This document shows, one piece after another, positions 857-35,548 of a stretch of 64,000 nt of DNA. Positions within the stretch are counted from its first letter, which is position 1, and every line of letters starts with the position of its first letter. The position numbers and the translations under genes are program-made. Below the pieces are notes generated by a model. That model searched no databases, was not told the DNA's origin, and saw only the letters and a list, made by a program, of their open reading frames with translations. This DNA is from Isoetes taiwanensis (Eukaryota; Streptophyta; Lycopodiopsida; Isoetales; Isoetaceae). The stretch lies in contig JAJEKV010000065.1 of the NCBI GenBank assembly GCA_021234155.1, positions 4,705,594 to 4,769,593 on the forward strand, given 5' to 3'.

Positions 857-3800
857 GATGTTGTATCCCCTTTCTGCAGAATGGATCGATGTCTTAAAGC
901 ACCAGTTGAAGAAGAAACTATGGAAGAAGGATTGGACTCTCATGCAAGCACTTCGAGGTCAGCATCGGGTTCAGATTTCAATCCTCCTGTTGATGAAGTT
1001 TCGGAAAGCACTGTTACAAGCAGGCAAAGAAAATCGAAACAGAGGGTTTGTAGGGGTGGATACGTGACAAAGCCAATTAGAAGAAAGGTGAATGCTTCTG
1101 TAAATCTCATAATGAATGAGGTATCTAATTTGACTCCAAAACAGCAAAGTATATTTGCAAGAAGATTATTGCAGGACAAAAGATTGCAATTCCTATTTGA
1201 GCCAGTCATTGGAAGGCCTCAAGAGGCTATCGTGAAAACAGATCTGGTAAAGAATTTAAAGGATGGCCTCCAAGACGTCAAAAATGCAAATAGCAATGAC
1301 AGACTTGCTGCAAAGCATTCTGTACTATCTATGGTGGTTGGAGAGGAAGGAGAATTACAGAAGACTTCACTAGCAGCTAAGTTGCTGAAAATACATCCTA
1401 GAAATATGAAACTAGCAGTGGAGAGAAGGAAAAGAATGTCACTGCATTAGCAGGTCGAAATCCAAGAACAAATACGATAGATCAGGCTATGAAGGATATG
1501 CTTGCTCAGTTTTGGTTAGATAACTCAAAGGTTTCACCAAAAATTAGAGATGTCATGAAGAAGAGGACACAACCAATTCAATATATTGACATTACACAGG
1601 TACGACTGTAATTTAGCTGTAATTGCATCTTGTTTTTCAGAATAAAGATGTTTTTTATTTTGTAACACTGATGTAAAGTTTGTAGATTTCTTTACTTTTT
1701 GGCAGAATAAAGATGTCTTTTATTTTGTAACACTGATGTAAAGTTTGTAACAGATTTCTTTACTTTTTGAATGTAGTCTGCCCTAGTTGTTCTACATGGA
1801 AATGTCAAATTATTTCATGGCAACACGTACATGTATATTTGTTTACATGTATATTCTGGATGTATATTTGTTTACATGTATATTCTGGATGTATTGTAGA
1901 TGTAGGCAGTAACTAAGAAGAAATTAGTGTGGAGATGTATTAATTGTCAAAAAATTATGTGACTCCATAGTAAATGAAATAAAATTCATGTCAGAATGTA
2001 CATGTATGTGTGGGAGTTTAGCGTCTTGAATATGTAAAAGATTTGTATATAATGTAATGTAATGATGTGACTAATTTTATTTCACTGTAATTTTACAGGC
2101 TGAATTATTCCAGAATTTTGTGGATCAGTATCCAGAGGTTCGGATTGGGCTTAGGCAATTTGAATACTTAAAACCTTCTTGCATTAGAAAGCTAAAGGAA
2201 AGAAACACATGTTGTTGCGTGAAACATGAGCAATCGATCCGCATGCGAGGCATTTAATTTGATGAGGTCAAGACTCCATGAAAATTGTTCGTGCAATTGT
2301 GGTGTGTGCGCATCTGAAGCTCATGCTGGATGTCAAGCCAAGAACAAGACATTTGATAATGTTAGCACATTTTGGAGGGCTATGGTATGTGACAGAGCAG
2401 CAGGCAAGGAGTGGCATAAGCTACAATGTATCAAATCAGATTGTGAAAATTGTGGGAAACAATTAATTGAGTTGTGTCCAAGAGAATACAAGGAGCAGAT
2501 TGATCAAACGCTTGATTGGCAAGTCTATGGTTACGTTAATGAGCCCTCGAAGAAAGGAACTTCACGAAGACTAAAGCTAATTGACAAGAAAGGCAGCTCC
2601 AGTAATATGTTGGATAACATGTTTGATCATATGTCGAAGTTTGTATATCATAACTTTGTGGCACATTGGCAGAGCAAACAATTCAAGGAATCCATGAAGA
2701 GTCTTCGTGATGATACCGTATTATCAGTTGTTGATTTCTCGGAGCCATTCAACGAGATTCAAGCACAACATTGGTACAATGAACAAATCAGCATATTGGT
2801 CCACATCACGATGTTCAAGGTACAGGGTAAAATGAGGAAATGTGTGCACTTCTTTATTTCAGATGACAAAACACATGATACTCACTTTGTACAAAAAGCA
2901 TTCAAGATGCACCTCAATTGGATGAAAGAAAATGGTTCTGGCCATATGAAATACCACTTAGTTTGGTCTGACGGGTGTGCAGCCCAATTCAAGTCGAGAA
3001 GAGCTTTCTATCATGTAACTAGGTATCATCACATCAAGAGCATAAGATCAGAATGCACTGGAATTTCTTTGGCTCAGGACATGGGAAGGGCACACATGTT
3101 GGAGAAGGAGCCATAGCCAAACTATGGCTCGAGGCAGAACAAAGAAAAAAGGATGGGAAAGTGATAAAAAATGCAGAAACTGCATGTGAGGTTCTTGAAG
3201 AGAAGATTTCTGATGTGGAAAGGGTATTTTGGAAGGTGTCCGACATTGACCGTTCCCAAAAGATTTGATGTGCTCCCGGTGAAAAGGGGTGCAATCTCTT
3301 CATTAAGCGTATCATCCATAGATCCAAATGATCCAACAAAGTTAATGTGTAGATCTCTTTCATGTTTTTGTAAGGCATGCATCAATTTTGATTGGCCTCG
3401 CTTGTGAGAATGCTGATCATTGTGGCGGTGGGAGTTGAGAAAACTAGAGCCTACAAACAGGGGACAATGTTGAAGAAGATGGGTGCGAAGCGCAGGACTT
3501 GTGGGCAAATGGCGTGGACAATATGGATGAGACAAAGGCAGGTTGGAGATTATTTTACATCATTCACATCCCCGCACAATTATGAAAGGGTCCCTTATTA
3601 TCTCATCCAAAGGTACGTATGAAACATGCCCTCAAGAAGACACCAAGGATGACTATGGAAATGAATTTTATTGTGGTAATGAAGTTATAGCTAGTAACTA
3701 CTTTGAATTGATTCCCCGGTTGCCATCAAAAGTACAGGGCTTATTCAAGGAAAGAAAGTTCTTGTCCATCCCGAAGTCAATAATTGGGGTGAGATTTCCA

Positions 3801-21022: not shown

Positions 21023-22848
21023 TCAACTCGTATGCTGTTTCCCCAATCCTTTTAGTAATCTTAAAAGGTCCAGCATACCGCGAGTAAGTTTGGGCACTCG
21101 ACCCTTAGTTAAAGGCCGTATGCATTGCCGTAATATTGCATCCATATCATAGAGCATATGCGTTGCAACTTCGGTTCTGAGGTACTTATGCATACCGGAA
21201 TAAGCCCTTGGATTTCGACCTATCATAGCCACAAAGGGAGTCATTTGAATTCACGTATGATGGCTATTATTGTAAGCAAATTCTAGATAAGATAGGTAAT
21301 CCTCCCATCTAGACTGCTTCTCATGGACAAAAGTTCGCAACATATTCTGTAGGATTATGTTTATACGCTCGATTTGTCCATCTGTCTGTGGATGATTTCC
21401 ACTACTCATGTACAATCGGATCCTCAATCCTTTCATGAGAACCCTCCAGAAGTGACCCGCAAATTTAGTGTCTCGATCACTTACAATAGACAAGGGAAGT
21501 CCAAAAGTTAGAAACATATGTTGCATATAGGTAACTGCTACATCATGTCCCGTAGCCTCCCCTTTTAATGCTATAAACTTAGCATACTTGGTTAATCGAT
21601 CCACTACTACCAAAATTTGAGTATGTTGCCTAACTGTTCTGGGCAATGCGATTATAAAGTCCATATTCACGCTCTCCCAGCGTTCATTTGGTATAGGAAG
21701 TGGTTGTAACAATCTCGGGGTTTTTCCATGATCTGCCTTTACAGCTTGACACACCAAGCAGCGGCCTATCAAGTCCTTGACTTGATCTTGCAACTCTGGC
21801 CAGTAGTGAAACCTCTTAACCAATTCATAAGTTTTCCATCCACCTCCATGCCCAGCTTGTGGAGTATCATGGTGCTCATGCAGAAGTGATTCCCTAAGAT
21901 TCCCACCTAAAGGAACATAAATCCTTTCTTTGTAAAAATGCAACCCTTCTTGCTCAGTCCACAGCTCCCCGAGCTTGACTACTGCCGGATCTTGTTGATC
22001 CTCCGTATATGCATCTTTGATCCTTTGCATAAGATCATTTTCCAAAGTTATTAGAGTATTTATATGCTTATACCTTGATAGCGCAGCGGCAACTGGATTA
22101 TTCTTGCCAGGCGTATGCTCAATGGAAAAATGAAACTCATGGAGGAAATCTAGCCATATAGCCTGTCTCGGGCTAATCTCAGCTTGACTTTGCAAGAACT
22201 TTAATGGTTTATGGTCCGTATAGATGATAAACTTGTGCGGCTCTTTGTTCGTCCCACTACACAAGTAGTGCCTCCAAGTTTTCAACGCATGCACAATAGC
22301 TAACAATTTTTCCTAATAGGTTGCGTAATTCCTTTCATCAAGACTCAGTTTTCGACTTTCATAAGCCACAACATGTCTTTGCTGCATTAACACCGCCCCC
22401 AACGCTTGCCCACAAGCGTTAGTATAGACCTCAAATGCCTCATTCAAATACGGCACCTTCAACACATGACTGCTAACCAACAAGTCCTTAATGCGTCGAA
22501 AAGCCTCTTGCTGCTCTTTCCCCCACACAAAATCGTGATCTTTTGAAAAGATCAGTGAGGGCAGTTACAACTTTGGAGAACTTTAGTACAAATTTCTGGT
22601 AGTACGTTGCTAACCCCAGAAAACTCTTGTAATTCTGAAACGTTTTCTGGTGAGTGCCATTGCTGTACCACTTGTACCTTGGCGGGATCTGGTGACACAC
22701 CTTCATCTGAAAGGATATACCCCAAATAGGCCACTTGCTGCTTAAAGAAGTCATATTTGGAGATCTTTGCATAGAGTTTATGTTCTTGCAAAATTCGAAG
22801 AAATTATTCCAAGTGAGCGAAATGTTCTTCAATAGTTTGGGAGCAGAT
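21023..22848 (-). pseudogene. D pol, 3' half: end of reverse transcriptase, RNase H, integrase
   Basis: Reading leftward from the edge of C: EEHFAHLE and EHKLYAKISKYDFF (end of the RT domain), RNase H with FIIYTDHKPLKF, a zinc-binding module with CLVCQAVK, and an integrase core with VNMDFIIALP, IVSDRDTKFAGHFW and HPQTDGQIERIN, giving the D, D and E catalytic residues. The segment to 21023 holds a further piece of pol in another frame. Stops and frame changes (near 22800, 22570, 22312 and 21250) show the gene is dead. Confidence 0.88.
22845..22848. other. target-site duplication of C, left copy (AGAT)
   Basis: AGAT precedes the left end of C and is repeated at 35549-35552. Taking out C plus one copy leaves the pol frame of D in phase. 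Confidence 0.9.
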
Positions 22849-22873
22849 AAGTCGTATTTAATTAAAGTGGGAC
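22849..22873 (+). repeat. left terminal inverted repeat of C
   Basis: Exact reverse complement of 35524-35548, ending AAAGTGGGAC. Followed by CATTCCATTCCCACTTT, a partial inverted echo of the repeat. Confidence 0.95.
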
Positions 22874-23121
22874 TCATTCCATTCCCACTTTTTTTCGGAA
22901 CCCTGTTAATTTACACGAAAAGGAGCACCCCGACCCGAAAACTATCCTTAATTCGAATTTTTGTCTGTTATTGTGCATCCAAGCTTTCTTCCAATTTTCC
23001 CTGGATAGCGAGTCGAGAACAAGAACAATGCAACTAAAACAAAGGAAATTCATTAAAGATTGGAACCAAAGCTCTAGTTGAAAAAGAATTTTTATTAATA
23101 AATTGAATAGTACAATGTATT
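22874..23121. other. left subterminal region of C
   Basis: No coding sequence recognised. A half-site of the palindrome (GCGAGTCGAGAA) occurs at 23008-23019. Confidence 0.5.
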
Positions 23122-23520
23122 TTACATCGGACGCAGAGACCATGGCGGTCTTGCTGTCACTACAATTACATCATCGTGGTAGGTGGTCCACCTTAGGGGA
23201 TTAACTTGCGGCGCTTCTTCACGCCGACTGTAAGCCTTGGGGGCAACCTGAAGAGTGTGGAATGCCTCACGTGGAGGTGCCTCTGGAGCCACCGACTGAC
23301 CTGTCCACCCGACTTCTCCACTCTCCTCCCGCAGCTTTTCATCGAATATGCTCCATCCCCAACCCCCGTGGATGTTATGCAATGCTTGCAAGATGCTTTG
23401 AGCTTCCTTGACTTCATGAAATTTCTTCGCGTCTTCTTTATCCCAAGGTTGTGCATGGCGTCTGCATTCACGAGCAACCTTATCCCAAAGGCCGGGCAAG
23501 AGTGTAGCGTGAGCGGGATC
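23122..23520 (-). CDS. unrecognised open frame in C
   Basis: About 130 codons reading PGLWDKVARECRRH, EVKEAQSILQALHNIHGGWG and ending SLRPM. Composition is protein-like (mixed charged and hydrophobic residues, Trp-rich). A low-complexity GTDPA/GTDSA-type segment lies just upstream. It could be a downstream exon of the minus-strand gene of C or a small separate gene. No function can be assigned. Confidence 0.4.
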   Translation of the reverse strand, partial: DPAHATLLPGLWDKVARECRRHAQPWDKEDAKKFHEVKEAQSILQALHNIHGGWGWSIFDEKLREESGEVGWTGQSVAPEAPPREAFHTLQVAPKAYSRREEAPQVNPLRWTTYHDDVIVVTARPPWSLRPM

Positions 23521-23763
23521 TGTGCCAGAACAGTATCTCTTCCGCCTTGAGCGGGATCTGTGCCACCTGGAGCGGTCTCTGTGATGCCTGAACGGGATCT
23601 GTGCTGGTGTCGGATCTGTGCCTGAACCACCTGGAGCAAGGAGAGTCTATGATTAACAATTACGGTGCCATTAGTCGAAACGAAGAAAAGAATGGTGAAA
23701 TCAAATTACAATAGAGAACATTCATTCCATATAACTGCATCCAATCACGTGAAAAGTAGTGTC

Positions 23764-24040
23764 TTTCTCGACTCGCGAGTCGAGAAAGGCCCGGAAAAGT
23801 CAAAGTACAACCATTCTCATTAGAATATGGTTGCATCCAATCACACATGGAAGCATACAAATGGTTTCGTCAACGAGATAAGCAGTGCCTTTCTCGACTC
23901 GCGAGTCGAGAAAGGCCCAGGAAACCCAATGTACAACCATTATCATAATAGATTATGGCTACATTCAGTCACACAAACAAACATACAAATGGTTTCATCA
24001 ACAGGACAAGCATGCCTTTCTCGACTCGCGAGTCGAGAAA
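23764..24040. repeat. palindrome array of C, cluster 1 (3 copies, 3' flank of the gene)
   Basis: Perfect copies of the 24-bp palindrome (core CTCGACTCGCGAGTCGAG flanked by TTT/AAA) at 23764-23787, 23890-23913 and 24017-24040. The second extends to a 30-bp perfect palindrome. The copies sit about 125 bases apart in diverged tandem units that also share ATACAAATGGTTTC. Confidence 0.95.
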
Positions 24041-25023
24041 GCCAGCGAAAACTCAATATACATGTATATTCATTACAAAATATAGTACATTTCTTCACGT
24101 TTCTTTACAATATTCACACAATTTGACTATCTGAAAGCAGAGGTCACTCTTCTTGATCACCAAAATATTTCATAGCTTTCATGATCGCGCGGCTCTCTGG
24201 ATCGGGTTCCTTGAGGCTCGGATAGTTCGTAATCACATCGGCCACAAGAATGGCAAAGAGGGATTCCGCCAAGACAGGACAAAGTCCGAAAGACAACCAC
24301 CTATCCGTCTCATACTCTTCTGGTCGATAAGTCTTAGCAATGATTGTATTTTGCGAGTTATGATAGCACTTGTAGGCAGAGTCGTCTATGATCAGCGTGT
24401 TGTGTTTGCCAAAGTCCGGGAATTGTTCATAAACCCTGTCCAGCCTTTTCACCATAATATGCTTCCCCTTTGTGATGGCTGGATCGAGGTCTGACACATG
24501 CTCGACCCTTTCGTTTCCCCAAACAAACTTGAACTTCAAAACTGGAAGGCCGAGAACACCAAGAACATTGACAATATTTTTCTTTGCCATACAAGACCAT
24601 ATGGCCACTTCGAATCCCCGTTCCAGGCACCATTCAACAATTTCCTTTGCTCTAGGCCTCGGATACACGATTTTATGCTCCGTTTTCGTCGGGATCTGCG
24701 AGGTGTTAAGCTCAGGGACGTCTTTATCGTGGTATACTGCAGCTAATACTCCATTGACGTCAAATATTACAAGCTTGGTGGGACCAGCTGGATCCCAGTT
24801 GGAGTTTGGCTCTGACCATATTTCCGGTTCATCGGGATCCATATGCGGGATCATTATTTTTTCAGGTCCTTTCTGGCTGCCCGCAGTGTCTTGCTCTTGA
24901 TTGTCTTTGGGGAGTGCAGTGTCCTCCTCGCGACATGAACCGCCACTAGATATTGTCAATGATCCGGAGTCGTTGACTTCGATCTCCCTGAAATGATGAG
25001 AGATGTCAGATAGGAAACGAGTT

Positions 25024-25093
25024 TTCTCGACTCGCGAGTCGAGAATGGAAAAAAGTTAGTCCCGAAAGGTTTCTCGACTCGCGAGTCGAGAAA
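25024..25093. repeat. palindrome array of C, cluster 2 (intron 3)
   Basis: Two perfect copies, 25024-25045 and 25070-25093, separated by 24 bases, inside the intron between the third exon and the phosphatase exon. Confidence 0.95.
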
Positions 25094-26797
25094 CACCGAG
25101 AGAGCAAAGTGAACTCACCTCAATCTCAGATTCTCAAGAATTTGTTCCGCAACATTCTGGTCTAAACCTTCGACATTCTCGTCTCCGTCATGTTTCTCTC
25201 CTCGCCTCGTGTTTGTCTTCGCCATCATCGTCCCATCGCTTCCATTTGTCTTCCTCCCTTTGAAATGCTCATGAAGCGTATCCGTATGACCGAATGGTTT
25301 CAACCATGTCCTTATTTCCAACCACGGATATAGGTTTCATTCCATACAAAGATAGCCCCCCGAGAGAAACAGCCATTCATGTACCACTCGATACAATTTG
25401 ATCTTCCTCGACCAAGCCGGTTATGAAGTACTTGATAACTCTTGGCCGATAGGAATTCTATGTATAGGACCCGTCGCACCATCATTGCCGACTTTGTCCA
25501 TCGATGGCACATCCTCCATAACCTGCCGCCCTTCCGTGGTTCCATCCGCTCTTGAGAAATCATGAACCCGTCGAGATAATGATGTTCGCTAGACCACCAC
25601 TTGTCCAGTCTACACCGATCTTGAAACCAAAACCAAAACTATATTGGCAAAGCTTGGTGCCTTCGGCAAGCCAAGTCTACACTCATGTTCAAGTTCGTAT
25701 ATGGAGTACAAGATCTTGTTGGTGAAGTTAATATCAGCTGCCCATTGGGAGACAAAGAAGTTATCCGATTGCCCGGCATGCAAAAGACAAGGAAACCGAA
25801 AGTATCCGTGTCGGTCATGTCCGTGACACGCCTTGTACCAATCGCCTCTATGTCAGCTTTGTCATAAAAAAGGGTGGGGTCTTCGATCATATTGATGGCA
25901 AATAGTGCCACGGGCCCAGGTGCCAGTTCCAGACCACCAAATCCCTTGTGTCCCAATGTTACCAGGAATGGGGGGGAGCTATCATCGGCCTTAAATGGGA
26001 CCACCCCAAATCCAAGCTTCCTCTTCAAAATTGCCATAGCACGTTCAGGGAAGGGAAGGGTTTTGACGTTACGCTTTAGCTTGGTGTTGATGTAGGGTTG
26101 ACATAGACGGTTCAATTCCTTCATGTCTTCCTCATCAAGGGCAGCCTTTTCCTTGTAATAATCAAAGTCATGGTATTCATTGGAAGCAACATTGCAGAAC
26201 TCCGTGATGCCTTCTTCCAACGCACGCCGTCTCTTTAGGACTGTGGCATAATCCTTTTGAGCTTCTACTTTTCCTTAGCAGGATTGTTCCATCCAGGATT
26301 CTGCCCTGTAGATCAAGTGTTTCCTTGTCGGTCAGGCCCTGTATCCTTTTCATAAATTGCCTGTCGAACAACTTTGGGTCCGGCTTGCATGGAAATTCCC
26401 CATTGCTGTCCTTCAGCTTGCCTCTTGTCCATTGAGCCCATATCTCAGTCCATTTCTCCCAGACCGCCTCAGTGCTAAGAATGAGGTCATATTGGTCTGA
26501 GAGAGACTCCCTGCCCTTTCTTGGTGTTCTCTTCTTCTTTTCCTCTTCATCCTCCCCCTCATCATCTTCTTGGCCTTCCAGCAGAACATATCTGCAGAGT
26601 TTCTCAAAGGTCTTCCACTTATCCGAGGGAGCCCTGTTTCCTTTAGGACGCTGAGGACAACCCAATGCTTTCCACTGTTGCCGAGCGTGTATGATCTGGT
26701 CAGGATACGGGCTGCATTCAGTAAATGTCCCAAATGTTAGAGCATGAAAGTATCTACTAACACCCGAAATAAACACTAAATAGGAGGATGCAGGGGG

Positions 26798-27542
26798 TTT
26801 CTCGACTCGCGAGTCGAGAATACCCACAAGGAGAGGAGAAAACATAGGAGAGTCCAGGCCAGAGCGAAAGCATCGCGCATTCCCAAATCTTTGCTTTCAC
26901 GCCTCTTCGAACGATGCAACTTAGGATATAAACTAAGCGACATTGCCCGAAGAGGCGGGGAAAGAAAGATTGAGAAGGCTCGATGCTTTTGCTCTTCAGC
27001 CATTAATCTCCAGTGTTCTCTCTATTGTCCTGGGGTTTCTCGACTCGGGAGTCGAGAAAGTGAGAGGAACACAAGTAAGGAGAAGATTCAAGGGACTTTC
27101 TCGGCTCGCGAGTCGAGAATACCCTCGGGAGAGGAGAGAACATGGTGCGAGAGTGAAGGCCAGAGTGAAAGCACCGCTCATTCCCAAATCCTTTCTTGCC
27201 GCGCCTCTTCGAACGATGCAACTTAGAATAGAAACTAAGCGACATTGCCCAAAGAGGCCGAGGAAGAAAGGATGGGAAGGCTCGATGCTTTCAGTCGGCG
27301 ATCATTAATCTCGAATGTTCTTTACCGCCCCGAGGTTTCTTGACTCGCGAGTCGAGAAAGTCCATTGAATGTTTAATTTTCTTTTACTTCTCTGGGTTTT
27401 CTCGACTCGCGAGTCGAGAAAGCTCCGCATCCTTTGATTTTTCTGTGTTCCCCTGACTTTCTCGACTCGCGAGTCGAGAAACCCCAGTGAAAATCGAGAA
27501 ATGATAGGATGCTAGGGCTTTCTCGACTCACGAGTCGAGAAA
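26798..27542. repeat. palindrome array of C, cluster 3 (intron 2, 7 copies)
   Basis: Copies start at 26798, 27036, 27097, 27336, 27398, 27458 and 27519. Those at 26798, 27398 and 27458 have a perfect core; the others carry one central or arm substitution (CGGGAG, CGGCTC, CTTGAC, CTCACG). The last four have a spacing of about 61 bases. The intron also holds a duplicated phrase (TTCGAACGATGCAACTTAG at about 26908 and 27209). Confidence 0.95.
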
Positions 27543-28888
27543 CTGCCGAATCGGAGAGTTATTTACCTTATGTAGCTGGCACTCGCTGCTATTGTGTTCT
27601 GGCAGTGGCTAATGCTGGCCAACTCGGTTGCTGGCATCTCCGCTGAAAGAACTCTGCACTCTCGCTTGGCATATCTATCCTTGATCCTTTGCGGCACCTC
27701 CTTCTCCGTCTGCAATACTTGCGCTGCCCTCACTGAATGCTGACCGTCTACTACCCAGAACCGGACGTCTTTTCCCTTCAGGTCTTCCTCAGACTTCCAG
27801 CTGAACAACTCACCAGTCGATCTGCTGAAAGGTATGACATCCGCAGGCATTGGATCTGCAACAGGATGTCGCACCATCAGGTTCAGAATCTCCAGCATGT
27901 GTGCTGGATTAAATTCCCTGTGGTTGAACAAGACAGCATCTCCCGTGCAAACCTTCAGGCGTCTGATGTCCAGCAGCAGCTTGTGCGATATTCCCAACGG
28001 ATAATACTGAGCCAGCCGCTCCATTTTCTGTGCCCCTCTCTGTGAAATCCTGATCTGCTCATCTGGATCCATTAATGGGGAGTCGACCATATCTTCGTCT
28101 GCTTCATCATCTGATTCCTCCCGTGTGATGTCATCTGTATCTGTGGTCATGTCCGGAGATTTTTCTGTATGAACCACAACTTCCCTTGTAACTGCCGAGT
28201 GCTGTAGAGTCTTCATCCTTCATCCCTTCCAGATCCTTCCACCCAAGGTTCTGACAGTTTAAAGGCGCCGGCCTTTTGTCGGTGCCCTTCGACTTGCTCA
28301 TTGAAGAGTGAGAATAATTTGAAACTGATAATTTCTTCGTGTGGTAGAACTTACTCTTCTGGTAGTCTTCCACATACATTGATAGATGCTTCGAATCTGG
28401 CGCAGAGACGGAGAGCACAACACCGACCTTCTTGTACTTGTCTCCGGAGCTCTTCTTATCCCTTTGGTGGAGAAACAGATCTTTCTCCTTCCCACTTGTT
28501 GATACCTCGATATACCACCAAGAATCTGCTGGTGTGTCAAGAAGCTCTGTCTCCAATCCCTCGATGACGAAGAACGGAGTTCGGCCAGTGATCACTAGTG
28601 AGTCCACGGTGAATGCTGCAAGACCAAAGGATGGATCAGTAAAGGTATTCCGACGAAAGAAAAACCTCAGAGCTCACTTGGAGCGCCTGTCTTTTTCCTC
28701 TTGCTGCCGCTAGAACCAGCTTCCACTCCGGCGCCTCGCTTCTTGGACGGAGTCGTCATGTCTGTATGCCCCCGCATCTTCTTCCTGCTCGAACCCTTCT
28801 GTAAATTAAGCCTCCTCCGCGCCTTGGAGGTTTTAGGACTGCACGTAAAAAAGGTCGGGCGTGTTCTTAAATTTGAATTTAAGGACAT

Positions 28889-29068
28889 ACAATCATTTAA
28901 GAAAAAAAACGGGCTAAGGGTATAGCACGGTCGGCTTTAGCCCGCCCAAACACCATTTCGAAATTGAATCACATCCAGGGACTTAGTGAGCGTAGTGTAG
29001 CTTATCTTCACTGCGGCATTGGTGACTTAGAGTTGGGAGGCGAGCATCGACTGTAAGCGACTTCCGGA
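28889..29068. promoter_or_regulatory. divergent intergenic region of C
   Basis: Only about 180 bases separate the start region of the minus-strand gene from the plus-strand gene start at 29069. Both promoters should lie here. It contains GGGCTAAGG and TTTAGCCCGCCC as an inverted pair. No clear TATA box is seen. Confidence 0.5.
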
Positions 29069-29649
29069 ATGGCGCCACGATGCTGTAAGCTCCTCACAGC
29101 GCCTTGCTCTGTGTATTTTTTCTATTCGCGGGTCTTGTTGCAAGTAGTTGATTTGATCGATGAGCACGGAGCTAAGGTAGCAAGCAGAGAGGAGCTGCCA
29201 GACACGGGAATGCTATACTGCAGCGCCATGGAACGGGGATACACGAGAATCGCACTGATACAAGTATCAGATGCGAATGCACTCTTGATGAGACCGACAG
29301 AAGAAGCAAAGACTCTCGGTGAGGCTGCGGGATCTGTCATACAATGGCCCAAGGAATTACTGCGTGAAGAGGTGAGTTTCAGAGATGCCTGTTATTTTGT
29401 GTGTAGAACATGCCGTCTGTGCTTAGATCATGGGACTGCTCATAAGCTCGACGGATTTAATGTTTCCTTGTCGAGCATTTTTCAGCTTCGAGAGATGAAT
29501 TACTCTCTGGGTTGAGAGATGCTCGGCACGGAAACAATGGATCGGGGGTAAACGTGAATAGTTCCATTTTAGGTGTATTTTTTCTTGGAATGTTTTCTTC
29601 GAATGTTGTATATAGATCAGGCTAGGTCTAAGGCCCTGGAGATGTGGTT

Positions 29650-31060
29650 CAAATGCATCCTCCTGTGGTTAGTCGGAGAGGCCTCCACCCAGTCGGAACC
29701 ACTCCTCTTCGCAATATTCGAGGAAGATGGTTCGAAGGAGAGTGGCTCAGACAGGCTAGAGGCACTTGGGACTAAAAACAAGAGAATACAAAGTGCTTAG
29801 TTGTAGAGGCCTGTGCTAAGACCCAAAGGCCTGCAGACAGTCAGGGCCACTTCCCTTCGCAATATTCGAGCAATATAGTTTGAAGGAGAGTGGCTCAGAC
29901 TGTCTGCAGGCACCTGGAGAATGCACGGGAGCGGGCATTGCTATGTGGGAGCGGGCTAAGGGATTCTCGACTTGCGAGTCGAGAATGCAAGTGTTGGCTT
30001 CCTGTCTGCATTCTCGACTCGCAAGTCGAGAATGCCTTAGCCATCGAGAACTCCAGATAGTACACATGTAGTGCTGGCTGGTTTAAGGCATTCCCCACTT
30101 CGCAAGCAGAATGCATAAACAAGCTTCGATGGTTTCCCTGTGGTTAGTTGTAGAGGCCTCCACCCAGTCCAAGCCCCTCCCTTCGCCCAATATTCGGCCT
30201 AAGATGGTTCGAAGGAGAGTGGCTCTGACTGGGTCGAGGCCACTGCGACCATACACAGGAGAATTGGCTGGCTAAGGGATTCTCGACTTGCGAGTCGAGA
30301 ATGCAAGTGTTGGCTTCCTGTCTGCATTCTCGACTCGCAAGTCGAGAATGCCTTAGCCATCGAGAACTCCAGATAGTACACATGGAGTGCTGGCTGGTTT
30401 AAGGATTCTCGACTCGCGAGCCGAGAATGCAGACAGCAAGCTCTGTGGTTTCGCTGTGGTTAGTTGTAGAGGCCTCCACCCAGTCCGAGCCCCTCCCCTT
30501 CGCAATATTCAATGAAGATGGTTCGAAGGAGAGTGGCTCGACCGGGAGGCCACCGCACTATACAGGAGAATTGGTCGCTAAAGGGATTCTCGACTTGCGA
30601 GTCAAGAATGCAAGTGTTGGTTGTTGCATGCATTCTCGACTTCGCAAAGTCGAGAATGCCTTAGCCATCGAGAACTCGGATAGTACACATGGCGTCGGTG
30701 GTTGGTTAAGGCATTCCAACCGGACTTCGCGAGCCGAGAATGCATATCAAGTTCTCGCGGTTTCCCTGTGGTTAGTTGTAGAGGCCGCCACCCAGTCCGA
30801 GCCCATCCCCTTCGCAATATTCGACGAAGATGGTTCGAAGGAGACGGTCTCTGCGATATCGGGTAGAGGCCAAGTTGTGACCATACAATGTGAGAATTGG
30901 TCATAAGAATTGGTCTGCGAGAATTGAGGACCTGCAGACGGGCCGGCTCAAAGCCACTTCCCCCACTTCGCAATATCCGAGCAAGATAGTTTGAAGGAGA
31001 GTGGCTAAGATCGCCCTGCAGCACCGTAGAATGCACTAGAGCCGGCACTGGTGTGTGTGA
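29650..31060. repeat. tandem repeat array of about 310 bp units with internal hairpins
   Basis: Units start near 29655, 29813, 30135, 30452, 30763 and 30930. Each has an imperfect hairpin of about 85 nt with CTTCGCAATATTCGA opposite TTCGAAGGAGAGTGGCT. For example, the arms GCCTGCAGACAGTC and GACTGTCTGCAGGC pair at about 29829-29912. The segments 29956-30068 and 30272-30384 are practically identical, so amplification is recent. Confidence 0.85.
29963..30742. repeat. palindrome array of C, cluster 4 (inverted pairs)
   Basis: Copies of the ATT...AAT subtype at 29963-29986, 30010-30033, 30279-30302, 30326-30349, 30405-30428, 30586-30609 and 30632-30657, and a decayed one near 30713-30742. In the pairs 29963/30010 and 30279/30326 one member reads CGACTTGCGAGTCG and the other CGACTCGCAAGTCG, exact reverse complements, around a 23-base spacer. 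The outer flanks GCTAAGG and CCTTAGC also pair. Confidence 0.92.
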
Positions 31061-31107
31061 GATTAGCGGGTGTTGTCGACAGGTTAGAGGCATTGGCTAG
31101 GTATGAC

Positions 31108-31300
31108 ATTCTCAACTCGCAAGTCAAGAATGTAAGAATGGCGTTATTCTCGGCGAAGTCGGGAATCCCTCAACCAGCCAACAATCCAGAGTGTACATTC
31201 CCTGTTCTCGCCTCGAGAGTCGAGATATTCTCGACTCGCGAGTCGAGAATAAGGCCTGTACTTTCTTGATTGTTGGCAAGTCGAGGGATTCCCGACTTCC
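31108..31300. repeat. palindrome array of C, cluster 5, within a 140-bp imperfect inverted repeat
   Basis: Copies at 31108-31131 (decayed) and 31227-31250 (perfect). A partial one is at 31205-31226. The segment 31158-31300 is an imperfect inverted repeat centred on the perfect palindrome; its arms begin GTCGGGAATCCCTC and end GAGGGATTCCCGAC and both contain the phrase CCAACAATC or its complement. Confidence 0.88.
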
Positions 31301-32239
31301 AATGATCAACCGAGTTCCCTACGCACCTCTCACGCAAAGGAGGATATGCTGTGAGTGAAATTTTCAATCTGTATGGCAATTCCTATTTTAAGTTTCTGTA
31401 AAGCAATTTCATGCATAATTATGTTCTTTTATGAATCATAGACAGTTCTCTTACTGTTATGCAATACTTTTCTTCCTATCTCTCAGGATTCCTAAGTCGA
31501 GTGCTTGCCACTACTATTAGCATCTAAGAACACTGATGCATGTACAAGGTATTCAAGTAAACAATAACTAAACACAAGAAAGCACAAACAGAAAGCAAAT
31601 CAAAAGGAAAGCAGTGAAGCAGCTTTGAAACATCAGACAAATGAGAAAATATTAAGAAAAAAAAATACCTGGGAGATTTGTTGGATGAGGAGGAAGCTGC
31701 AGAGTTCGATTCCATTTTGCTACAGGCGTTTGCAAAGCGAGAGTAAGGATTTGTCGGGCTGGAAAATGTATCAGGGTACATAAAGAGGCTCTAAAAAAAT
31801 AATAGGAGCAGCACAGTAGTAAAGGAATTGCAAAAAAACAATAAACAAGCAGTATAAGAATATAAAAACTTACAGAAAAGATTTCTCACTTTCTTCTTAG
31901 GAAGTACTTTCTGCTGGCTAGGTCAAATTGAGCCAAAACCTCGTCGCTGGATGCGTCGCGATCCGTCGACCACGCTACAGTCATAAGATTGCTTCGGAAA
32001 TGGGGGAGTCGATTGAGCGCCAAGGCGGAACAGGGGAACAGGCGGCTGCCGGAGTCGGAACAGGGGAAAACAAAGAGGAATGGAAGGAATAGGGGTCGCG
32101 GGAGAAGAGGAAGAGGGTGCAGTTATTTCTGGCTGCACCCTCGAACCTCGAAAAAGTGTCATTTATGACACTCCTAGAGTCACGTGTGTGGCATGCCATC
32201 TGTGACCTGGATTGCTGACGTGGCCATGTCAGATGTCGC
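31301..32239. other. intronic sequence of C, no gene seen
   Basis: Holds minus-strand frames (31781-31524 and 32253-31923) of unremarkable composition. A 5' splice-like GTGAGT and short T-rich tracts occur, but no motif supports an exon. Confidence 0.4.
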
Positions 32240-32495
32240 TGACGAAGGGCCACGTCAGCACAGTCATGAATTCGGGGAAGCCTATGTTTTAATGGTTATA
32301 ATGCTTTAATGCTTTTTAATGGTTAATGTTACATGTTTTAATGTTAGATGTTAGTGTTAAATGTTTTAATGTTTTTAATGGTTATAAGGTTATAATGTTT
32401 TAATGCTTCTTAATGGTTAATGTTAGCCAAAATTTCAATGGTTTTTAATGGTTATATGGTTTCTAATGGTTATATGGCTATAGTGCTCATTCATA
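32240..32495. repeat. TTTTAATGGTTA simple-sequence tract
   Basis: Many imperfect copies of TTTTTAATGGTTATAATG and related phrases just before the 3' splice site of the main transposase exon. Confidence 0.8.
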
Positions 32496-35400
32496 TATGG
32501 TTGTATATGGTTTTAATGTGTGCTCTTTCATTCAGGGAGCATGTGAGATGAGCAAAATGGAGCCAAGGAAGCCCAGCACAGGCCATTGCCCTAGGCTCCA
32601 ATGGAGGAAGATGGGTTGCTTGTTGTTGCACCCTTGCAACGAGACGGTATTTGCAGAGGCCATAATAATTGCAGTTGATCCTTTTGATAGTGTGAATGAT
32701 GAAAGGCTGGGAGATGATCATCTTGGAGTTGGCATTGTGAAGCTTCTTATCGAAGTTGATACAATCATGTCCCAGGGAAGCTCTAGTGATTGCATTGTGT
32801 GCTCTGGGTTGCTGGAGTCCCAAAGTCAGTTGAGATGGCCAATTAGATATATTACACACAAGAATGGTGATAGTCTGGAATGCCCTACTGAACTACATAC
32901 CCCAAGGCCCACCCAAGGTCATGTGGAAGATTTGGTGGTCGATGAGCATCATTTGATCACAAGGAAGAGACGCTATGTTTTTCATAAAAGGCAGCCAAGG
33001 GTGCCCAAGAGGCCTAGAAGTGACAAATATTTAGAAAGGATGGAAAGTATGGCCCCAACCAAAGAAAACCTAGAGGCAATTAGGGGACAAGAGTGTTGCA
33101 ACCTAGATTGCACAGTGCAGTACAGTGTGGATGACCTCGTGCAGATAAGGTCCCAATACATTGAACAGCTTCAAAAAGATAGGATTAATTTCATCTACTC
33201 CTTGTGTAGGAATTCCAGCTATGATGAAAACACAGGAAGGCTACTATATCAATTGAGGGGCATGAAGGTATGTATGAGAGCATTGAGATGGATTCTTGGG
33301 GTGAGCAAGTCTTCATTTTACAGATATCTTTGGGGCAGGTTAGAAAAGGGCACGGTTTGTTCCAACATGGTAATGCACTCACTTTGAAACCTAGAGCAAA
33401 TACTCTCAAGGCCATTGCAGTCTTGAGAGATTTGTGAGATACATGTCTCAATCTATGCCCCACAAGTCGAAGGTGAACGAGCACCTGCAGCGAGTGGTGC
33501 AAAGGGTGTTGCCACAACACTATATCCAAAAGGAGTGCCTTAAAGAGGTCAACTCCATCCTAGAAACCACTTGGAGGTAGGCCTCTTTCTCAATCACATT
33601 TTAGCAAGTTATGGAGCACTCACTTCTCAAACGTGAGTGTCCTGCAACACATGCCATTCTCAAAGTGCAACACTTGCATTCAACTCAAGGATACACTTGC
33701 ATCAACTGCAATAGAGAAAGAAAGAATGGCAATTAGGGAGCAATTTGCAGATCACCAAAGGGACCAAATATCATGTAGACAGTTGTATTGGCAGTGGAGA
33801 ACATTTTCTGAGATGCAGCCGGACAAATTTTTGTGTATAATTCATGATAAGATGGACCAACACAAGACTTTCTTGCCAAAGCTAGATCCTTTACCCAAGC
33901 GTTGTCAAAACGCTTTTCAGATGAAAGTAAGTCTGGCGGGTGTCTTAACACATGGTCATGGAACTGGAACATATGGTCATTTTGTGCTTGATCTATGGAG
34001 GGATGATCCAAACTTCCATGTGAGCTCTATTTTCAAGTGCTTGAGAACACTAGAGAAAGGATCGATAGAAGGGAGGAGGTATTCCCCTTCAAACCCATTT
34101 TGAGGCTTTGATGGATGATCAACCGCTTTGTTACCAAAGGCAGATAAAAAAGCTCACATCCAAGGTGTCTAGTGAATCAAGGAGGACTTGGGATGATTTC
34201 CCCTTACTTGAGAAACCACTGCCTGAGGAGCTATGTGTTCAATTGGACAACTTTTGGAAAGAAAACAAGAATAGATGGATGTTTGGGGCAATGTCATACT
34301 TGGACAAAGAAAGGGGAGTATTCAAAGTTGTGAAAGTGGGATTCATGATGGTTGGGCATACGCATGATGATATAGATGGATTCTTTAGAACTTTCTCCAC
34401 CAAGCTCAAGAGAGAAAACGTGACTAGTCTCCCTGAACTAATGGATGTGTTTGAGAGCTACATTGACCCCAACCCCCAGTTCAAGTTTTGGGTTAGGGAT
34501 GGAATACCAATCATGCAATATAAGTGGAGACCAGGTGACAAGTTGTGGATGCCTGTACAAGGAATCGAGTTGTGGCAAAGGGGTGCTGCTGGTGAAGTTC
34601 TCATTCCTAAAGGGCAGCCAAAACCACTACCTCCCTTCAAGACTGTCAAAGACTCTAGCCAACTAGTGAAGGGCATCAAGGATTACATAACGCACTGGGA
34701 TGATGTTTGAAATGGAAAGCACACCTCCACTCTTAAGAAAAATCAAATGGACTCCTTAATCAAGTACTGGGAGAAAGTTGTGACATGCTTAGAAACTGAA
34801 CAACCTTGTGGGAGGAAGCTAAGAGACGGGTTCTTGCCAGATCAAGATGGGAGGGTTCTCAAGGAGCAAGCACGTCTAAGAATGTTCACTTGGGTCCTAA
34901 CAAGGGTTCCAAGGTTTGTGGGAAGTAAGGCCTCAAAGCCGAAGTGGTTTGATCTTCCTGAGTGGGATCCCTTTGAGGACATCAAGGAAGGATACTTTGT
35001 GCTAGTAAGGCCTGATGATGAGGACTGTCCAATATGGTTAGGGGTGGCACTCTCTGATGTAACCACCACTATGCCTGATGGAGAGGAGTTGCGTCCTGGA
35101 TTCCAAATTCAATATTGGGAGCCCATTGGGAGACACAAGAAGGGCAACTTGAAGGAGCAATACACCGACTGCTGGGAGAAGAAGTGGAGGGCAAATTATG
35201 CTGATCCTCAAAGGAGGGAATTGGTGGAGTGTGTGGTATGGTCATATCCAAGTTCTCACACTGCAAAGGACAACACACACAAGATCCCAAAAAGGGAGAT
35301 GGACAAAGCCATGAGCAACCTCCATGCTATATCATTGTATGAGGGTAGATAATATTGAGAAGCTTGAAAACTTTCTCAACTAGTGGTTTGTAAAATTTAT

Positions 35401-35523
35401 GAGGAAAACAAGTAACCCAATTCTTTGTGTGTGATGTGTAATTCTATTCAAGCAATCAATTCCAAAAAAAAATTTATGGGGTGTGAGTCCCATTTTCAGT
35501 CCGAGTCCCAAAATTCAAGATTT

Positions 35524-35548
35524 GTCCCACTTTAATTAAATACGACTT
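35524..35548 (-). repeat. right terminal inverted repeat of C
   Basis: Exact reverse complement of 22849-22873, followed by the second AGAT copy (35549-35552). Two TGAGTCCC / CGAGTCCC motifs lie just inside it. Confidence 0.95.

Follow-up and report, generated by a model that had tools for sequence, protein, structure and literature searches.

An abundant DNA transposon of Isoetes taiwanensis with a palindrome array around an accessory gene that encodes a ParB-like box

A transposon with two divergent genes

The window analyzed here, a stretch of 64,000 nucleotides from the Isoetes taiwanensis genome (contig JAJEKV010000065.1, positions 4,705,594 to 4,769,593), contains a whole DNA transposon that carries a transposase-like gene and, opposite and divergent to it, an accessory gene. 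The predicted accessory product combines a ParB/DGQHR-like box with a NIF-type end, and a 22-letter palindrome is repeated in the introns and noncoding surroundings of its gene. The first-pass annotation of this locus had described a eukaryotic transposon that encodes such a box protein within its own palindrome array, a description that holds, with the box WVVDGQHSVRAAQVLQ and 21 sites. The interval it gave (24144-31250) is too narrow, since three sites lie to the left of 24144 and the element extends from 22849 to 35548.

The exact 25-bp terminal inverted repeat is present in 1,102 + 1,115 copies in the genome, compared with 0 for the control. A 4-bp target duplication flanks the window copy (AGAT) and copy B (TCAT); copy C shows none, copy E is missing its right end, and the right-hand ends compared do not include those of A and D. 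Ten further end pairs, 11.7 to 12.7 kb apart, were drawn from the first 100 terminal-repeat places listed, and all 10 of these elements had matching 4-bp flanks (5 bp in one case). Because of its sharp ends, inverted repeats, duplicated flanks, and copy number, the element is an abundant DNA transposon. The transposase-like gene matches DUF7869 (PF25273) at 34069-34707 (E = 1.7e-28) and, below the curated cutoff, at 33564-34100 (E = 1.4e-4). The window copy is damaged: approximately 92 nucleotides (nt) present in other copies are gone at 28215/28216, which breaks the exon with the box; 100 bp found in four other copies are gone at 34475/34477; and further frames are broken as well.

The box lies on the minus strand within an open frame at 27563-28219, and in several other copies the corresponding exon is an open frame of approximately 390 to 400 amino acids. 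At least 150 genomic matches of this exon were scored from 4,878 first-look candidates. The splice sites were read from sequence alone, and we infer that exon 1 through the last exon form one gene rather than two. The NIF domain (PF03031) is recognized above the curated cutoff both in the window (E = 4.5e-10) and in another copy (E = 9.1e-11). Its motif I is FDVNGV (DxN) in all nine copies in which it was located (11 sequences were scanned), in comparison to the canonical DxDx(T/V), a departure that would be expected to weaken NIF catalysis and predicts little or no activity. Phosphatase activity of the domain is doubtful because the motif reads DVNGV.

Codon comparisons among 15 stop-free copies gave a median ratio of nonsynonymous to synonymous substitution rates (dN/dS) of 0.13 for the box-containing domain (104 of 105 pairs, the remaining pair being outside the dS limits), and at this level purifying selection on the domain is shown. 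Values of dN/dS taken over all copies are inflated by frame breaks, and those of a masked rerun (0.23 to 0.43) are biased downward by the mask. The low identities of copies L037, L039, and L040 likewise reflect largely frame breaks, not divergence.

Table 1. Features of the transposon in the window
Feature	Position	Strand	Basis or detail
Complete transposon (window copy), 12,700 bp	22849..35548	.	aligned to five further copies in the genome
Left terminal inverted repeat AAGTCGTATTTAATTAAAGTGGGAC, 25 bp	22849..22873	+	ends read
Three palindromes, 3' of accessory gene	23765..24039	.	site scan; starts 23765, 23891, 24018
Last exon, NIF / FCP1-SCP-type phosphatase-like domain	24144..24987	-	Pfam PF03031
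131-bp intron with two palindromes	24988..25118	-	splice sites read from sequence
Two palindromes in 131-bp intron	starts 25024, 25071		site scan
Middle exon or exons, frame-broken in window copy	25119..26711	-	sequence; no significant family match
855-bp intron with seven palindromes	26712..27566	-	splice and site reading
Seven palindromes in 855-bp intron	starts 26799, 27037, 27098, 27337, 27399, 27459, 27520		spacings 60-62 and 238-239 bp
Exon 2 with ParB/DGQHR-like box WVVDGQHSVRAAQVLQ, interrupted here by 92-nt deletion	27567..28615	-	open reading frame, copy alignment
Probable exon 1, basic stretches KKRG and KRKK	28678..28777	-	ATG and splice donor located; translation
Nine palindromes between divergent genes	29964..31249	.	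several as inverted pairs CTTGCGAG / CTCGCAAG
Transposase-like gene with DUF7869, frame-broken in window copy	32467..35349	+	PF25273
Right terminal inverted repeat	35524..35548	-	ends read

Two further features were observed at the left side of the element. A short repeated unit around GAGCGGGATCTGTGCC lies inside it, near the left end (23500-23640), and frame-broken pieces of a retrotransposon polyprotein, recognized by eye as reverse transcriptase/RNase H and integrase-like, lie just to the left of the transposon (21251-22803).

The palindrome array and its conservation

The site is the palindrome TTCTCGACTCGCGAGTCGAGAA, counted in the window with up to three mismatches. There were 21 sites between 23765 and 31249 and none in 100 dinucleotide shuffles of the window. 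In exact form the palindrome occurs 3,678 times in the 1.66-Gb genome, in which the pattern read backwards occurs 0 times. A gene for the RuBisCO large subunit is also present in this genome. The array is real, a well-conserved palindrome scattered through the noncoding parts of the transposon.

The array also accompanies the gene. Copies of the box exon that carry the gene without palindromes were sought and not found: all 32 copies for which flanking DNA was available, out of the at least 150 matches in the genome, contained at least one palindrome when up to four mismatches were allowed (the window, L002 to L008, copies E to J, and L025 to L042). The six large copies contained 21, 16, 17, 21, 12, and 19 sites with up to three mismatches, a total of 106, the counts for copies A and D being possibly low because their right parts are interrupted or unreached and their right flanks unseen. 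These 106 sites lie in the 3' flank of the accessory gene, in the intron before the NIF exon, in the intron after the exon with the box, and in the divergent intergenic region; none falls in a mapped coding stretch, in the transposase half as far as it was covered, or in the retrieved flanks outside the element. Spacings of approximately 60 to 62, 126 to 127, and 238 to 239 bp recur among them.

The first entries of the genome-wide list, with the two contigs that contain clusters skipped, supplied ten palindrome-centered places, a nonrandom sample of the 3,678. In nine of them, an end sequence of the element lay within 3 kb of the palindrome, and in the tenth an exact terminal repeat lay approximately 7.5 kb away.

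Short nonautonomous elements carry the site as well. Nine elements of 3.5 to 4.1 kb, picked from terminal-repeat pairs, share the ends of the full transposon, and in every case their flanks match over 4 bp or more. By blastn, what they have in common with the full element is the ends and the palindromes only, plus up to approximately 85 bp of the repeat surrounding the palindrome. The site was present in all nine, ungapped with up to four mismatches in eight and with a 1-nt gap in the ninth. The interiors of elements of this size (L053 to L061 and L043) are related to each other and unmatched in the full element, so that the nine are not independent cases.

In each of the 10 copies compared with the window, the bases of the sites were more conserved than their 30-bp noncoding flanks. 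Identities of site and flank were 94.4 versus 91.8% in copy C, 95.8 versus 81.0% in copy I, and 93.2 versus 59.4% in copy J; the gap was large in copies E, H, I, and J, with few alignable site bases in copies F (22) and J (44). Among 270 sites with up to three mismatches at the loci of the mismatch profile, 111 were exact and the others held 240 mismatches, 116 of them in the central CGCG. The profile is roughly symmetric, which lends weak support to a site read by a dimer. Transitions at CpG account for 122 of the 240 mismatches. CpG decay as the sole explanation of the mutated sites was dropped in part, since the paired variants upstream (CTTGCGAG / CTCGCAAG) recur in other genomic copies and look fixed. 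The observed/expected CpG ratio was 0.56 in the window and 0.90 in the noncoding parts of the element (0.79 with the palindromes removed); the high ratio in these parts is consistent with an element that is young or with one that is less methylated in them.

Candidate binding sites and their possible reader

Because the sites outlast their flanks, avoid coding sequence, and are common to the short derivatives, the data argue for palindromes that are cis-acting, candidate protein-binding sites of this transposon. The most likely reader is the accessory protein. It would bind the palindromes of its own element, presumably as a dimer, and, once bound, would influence the element's chromatin or transcription, keeping both the transposon and its nonautonomous derivatives active in trans in the manner of VANC, the antisilencing protein of the VANDAL transposons; the outcome could be antisilencing or autoregulation. 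We give this self-recognition reading a probability of about 0.5. It is favored because the sites surround the accessory gene, belong to the element in the ten-place sample, and are kept by nonautonomous relatives, in an anatomy like that of VANC elements. A more elaborate form of it, a chromatin-addressing system, is tentative and rather unlikely: here the protein with the ParB-like box would read the array over the introns and the divergent promoter and deliver the NIF module there, and the element and its nonautonomous relatives would stay transcribed or be protected against silencing in trans. The NIF family includes phosphatases of the carboxy-terminal domain of RNA polymerase II.

How far the box resembles ParB bears on this proposal. 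It shares the motif [VI]-[VI]-D-G-Q-H with DUF6551 (PF20188) and ParB (PF02195). The first-pass annotation pointed to the ParB domain family of Pfam; in Pfam scans of the accessory-gene frames and of the box alignment, there was no match to PF02195. A ParB-like partition protein family of PHROG, phrog_1033, matched the window frame (E = 0.025) and two of six members of the box alignment (best E = 0.055), and Pfam DUF6551 also matched two of the six (best E = 0.061). Profiles were compared with those of 45 ParBs from loci with a bacterial parS site, of which 23 had been selected on the basis of the GERR and ENxQ motifs, and of six DUF6551 proteins (L217 to L222; DUF6551 was absent from a first set of 12 genomes and present in 6 of 296). 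DUF6551 is clearly related to canonical ParB in hhalign (95.7, E = 8.7e-9, with 15 unrelated control clusters reaching at most 0.7) and appears to be a ParB-fold family. The best profile-profile match of the box family among those tried was to DUF6551, with a score of 29.5, E of 0.0013, and a probability of 18.6; none of 300 column shuffles scored as high (maximum, 27.0), and 15 unrelated clusters scored at most 22.6. Realignment extends this match to 49 columns, in which a plausible helix precedes the box. An AlphaFold2 model of the window sequence alone had a mean predicted local distance difference test score (pLDDT) of 35.8 and a predicted template-modeling score (pTM) of 0.27, values too low to inform on the fold. 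The viral contigs searched contained no close relative of the full exon, of the box domain alone, or of the middle region, and no exact palindrome; phages gave chance matches only (E = 3), and PDB gave nothing (best E = 1.2). The idea that a canonical ParB gene lies at another genomic location was rejected, the search having returned two candidates and a single match below the cutoff (E = 1.49), a weak ParB_N match at G000:C1105:237209-237295.

Several results weigh against the self-recognition reading. The gap between site and flank is small in copies A, B, and C, at 2.6 to 4.6 percentage points, and in copies A, B, and D the exons are more conserved than the sites. The regular spacing shows tandem duplication, so that sites and their neighbors are not independent, and the palindrome is unchanged within the divergence reached. 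The dN/dS value is below 1 in every part of the element tested, not just in the box domain. With respect to the protein, the Pfam family that matches the box domain best is DUF6371 (E = 0.0071, three of six members), which is not ParB by name, and copy L006 matches neither DUF6371 nor DUF6551. The raw alignment to DUF6551 comprises 14 residues around WVVDGQHSVRAAQ and fails when forced to be global (score, 2.9); the match to canonical ParB is at chance, with 64 of 300 shuffles scoring as high. There was no helix-turn-helix (HTH) family in the accessory-gene frames scanned, which are partly broken and could contain a divergent HTH, and no other DNA-binding domain was recognized in the accessory protein. 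Because the DUF6551 match is short and canonical ParB is at chance, "ParB-like box" is a fair description and "ParB protein" is not established; the likeness to ParB that had been proposed is supported in part, for the short box and its match to DUF6551.

Other readings of the palindromes were weighed against the same evidence. The palindromes could be sites of a host transcription or silencing factor recruited by the element, the accessory protein doing something else. Such a factor could act at the positions that the sites occupy, the introns and the region between the divergent genes, and the nonautonomous elements carry the sites too; a host site would be expected elsewhere in the genome as well, whereas the palindromes sampled were found near element ends or, in the tenth place, within reach of a terminal repeat, and we consider this reading unlikely. 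Hardly different in standing, and perhaps a shade less likely, is the reading of the palindromes as by-products, a short repeat that no protein reads and that tandem duplication and gene conversion have spread inside the element. The regular spacings and the larger repeat units show that tandem duplication took place, and the differences between site and flank are small in the closest copies. However, the sites persist as their flanks diverge in all 10 copies, they are retained by short elements with otherwise unmatched interiors, and they are missing from the mapped coding stretches, the transposase half, and the fetched flanks of the six large copies.

It is improbable that the palindromes are internal repeats bound by the transposase and needed for transposition. 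Autonomous and nonautonomous elements do have them in common along with the ends, but most are not subterminal: the nearest site is 147 to 918 bp from the left end in the six copies and, at the right end, approximately 4.3 to 4.4 kb inward in the three copies whose sequence reaches that far (the window, B, and C), and the sites surround the accessory gene and not the transposase gene. Finally, a true ParB-parS partition system or spreading clamp in a eukaryote, which the first-pass annotation had raised, is very improbable despite a box that resembles the ParB-related DUF6551 beside a palindrome array, given the chance-level match to the canonical profile, the lack of an HTH family in the scanned frames, the replacement of GERRxRAA by GQHSVRAA and of ENxQR (placed by eye) by QNTIA, and the fact that a chromosomal transposon has no need of partition. 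The GERRxRAA and ENxQR boxes have a role in cytidine triphosphate binding.

Comparison with known transposon systems

Target duplications of 4 bp are common to several superfamilies, and DUF7869 may be linked to Sola. The matching flanks of at least 4 bp in all 10 further full elements and all nine short elements, with none in copy C, are like those of Sola, Sola2 being described as producing 4-bp target duplications (PMC3627910). A closer parallel is Sola1-1_Ec32 of Ectocarpus and related algal transposons, which according to PMC12477816 encode an accessory protein, opposite the transposase, that joins a ParB-like domain to a DNA methyltransferase. The authors of that study, which cites Iyer 2011 and Petroll 2025, suggest that the accessory protein of Sola1-1_Ec32 binds and epigenetically modifies its own transposon (PMC12477816). 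The Isoetes element is likewise a large DNA transposon with an accessory gene opposite the transposase gene and a ParB-like domain. Unlike Sola1-1_Ec32, it has a NIF phosphatase-like end and no recognized methyltransferase, and a palindrome array is documented here, whereas the string "palindrom" is absent from the main text of PMC12477816.

By analogy with Ectocarpus, visual inspection of the middle exons had raised the possibility of a degenerate N6/N4 DNA methyltransferase, which was not supported. No methyltransferase was among the Pfam matches of the middle exons up to an E of 10. An hhalign comparison of the middle region with three methyltransferases, a thin test set, aligned 10 columns, too few to mean anything, with a probability of 0.7 and a score of 20.2, the best of 16 control clusters having 0.5 and 17.3.

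The first-pass annotation had presented the locus as a new kind of system. ParB-like accessory proteins in algal transposons were already reported (PMC12477816), and what is new here is the palindrome array and the NIF partner. Among the open-access titles and openings of abstracts listed, none paired a palindrome array with a ParB-like transposon protein or described a NIF partner. The algal proteins have been proposed to bind their own elements, with no target site given where PMC12477816 describes them. For Isoetes an explicit candidate site can be named, one that is conserved, abundant at 3,678 exact copies, and also carried by nonautonomous elements, which makes such a proposal testable.

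The anatomy of the element is most like that of the VANC systems. VANC proteins of VANDAL21 and VANDAL6 bind a short motif repeated in the introns and upstream noncoding regions of their own element and lift its silencing, as set out in PMC5735166 and PMC10398659. As would be expected of a VANC-like system, the Isoetes motif is specific to its element, judged from the ten-place sample, and repeated in the element's own noncoding regions. The two have in common an element-encoded accessory protein, a motif repeated in the element's own introns and upstream noncoding regions, and turnover of that motif by tandem repeats (PMC5735166, PMC10398659). They differ in that the Isoetes motif is a perfect palindrome of 22 to 24 bp and the VANC motif, as described in those papers, is short and directional, and the likeness of the Isoetes element is drawn from its anatomy. 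If the accessory protein does bind its palindromes, it would add to VANC another way in which a transposon recognizes its own sequence specifically, one whose partner is of the phosphatase type instead of a methyltransferase.

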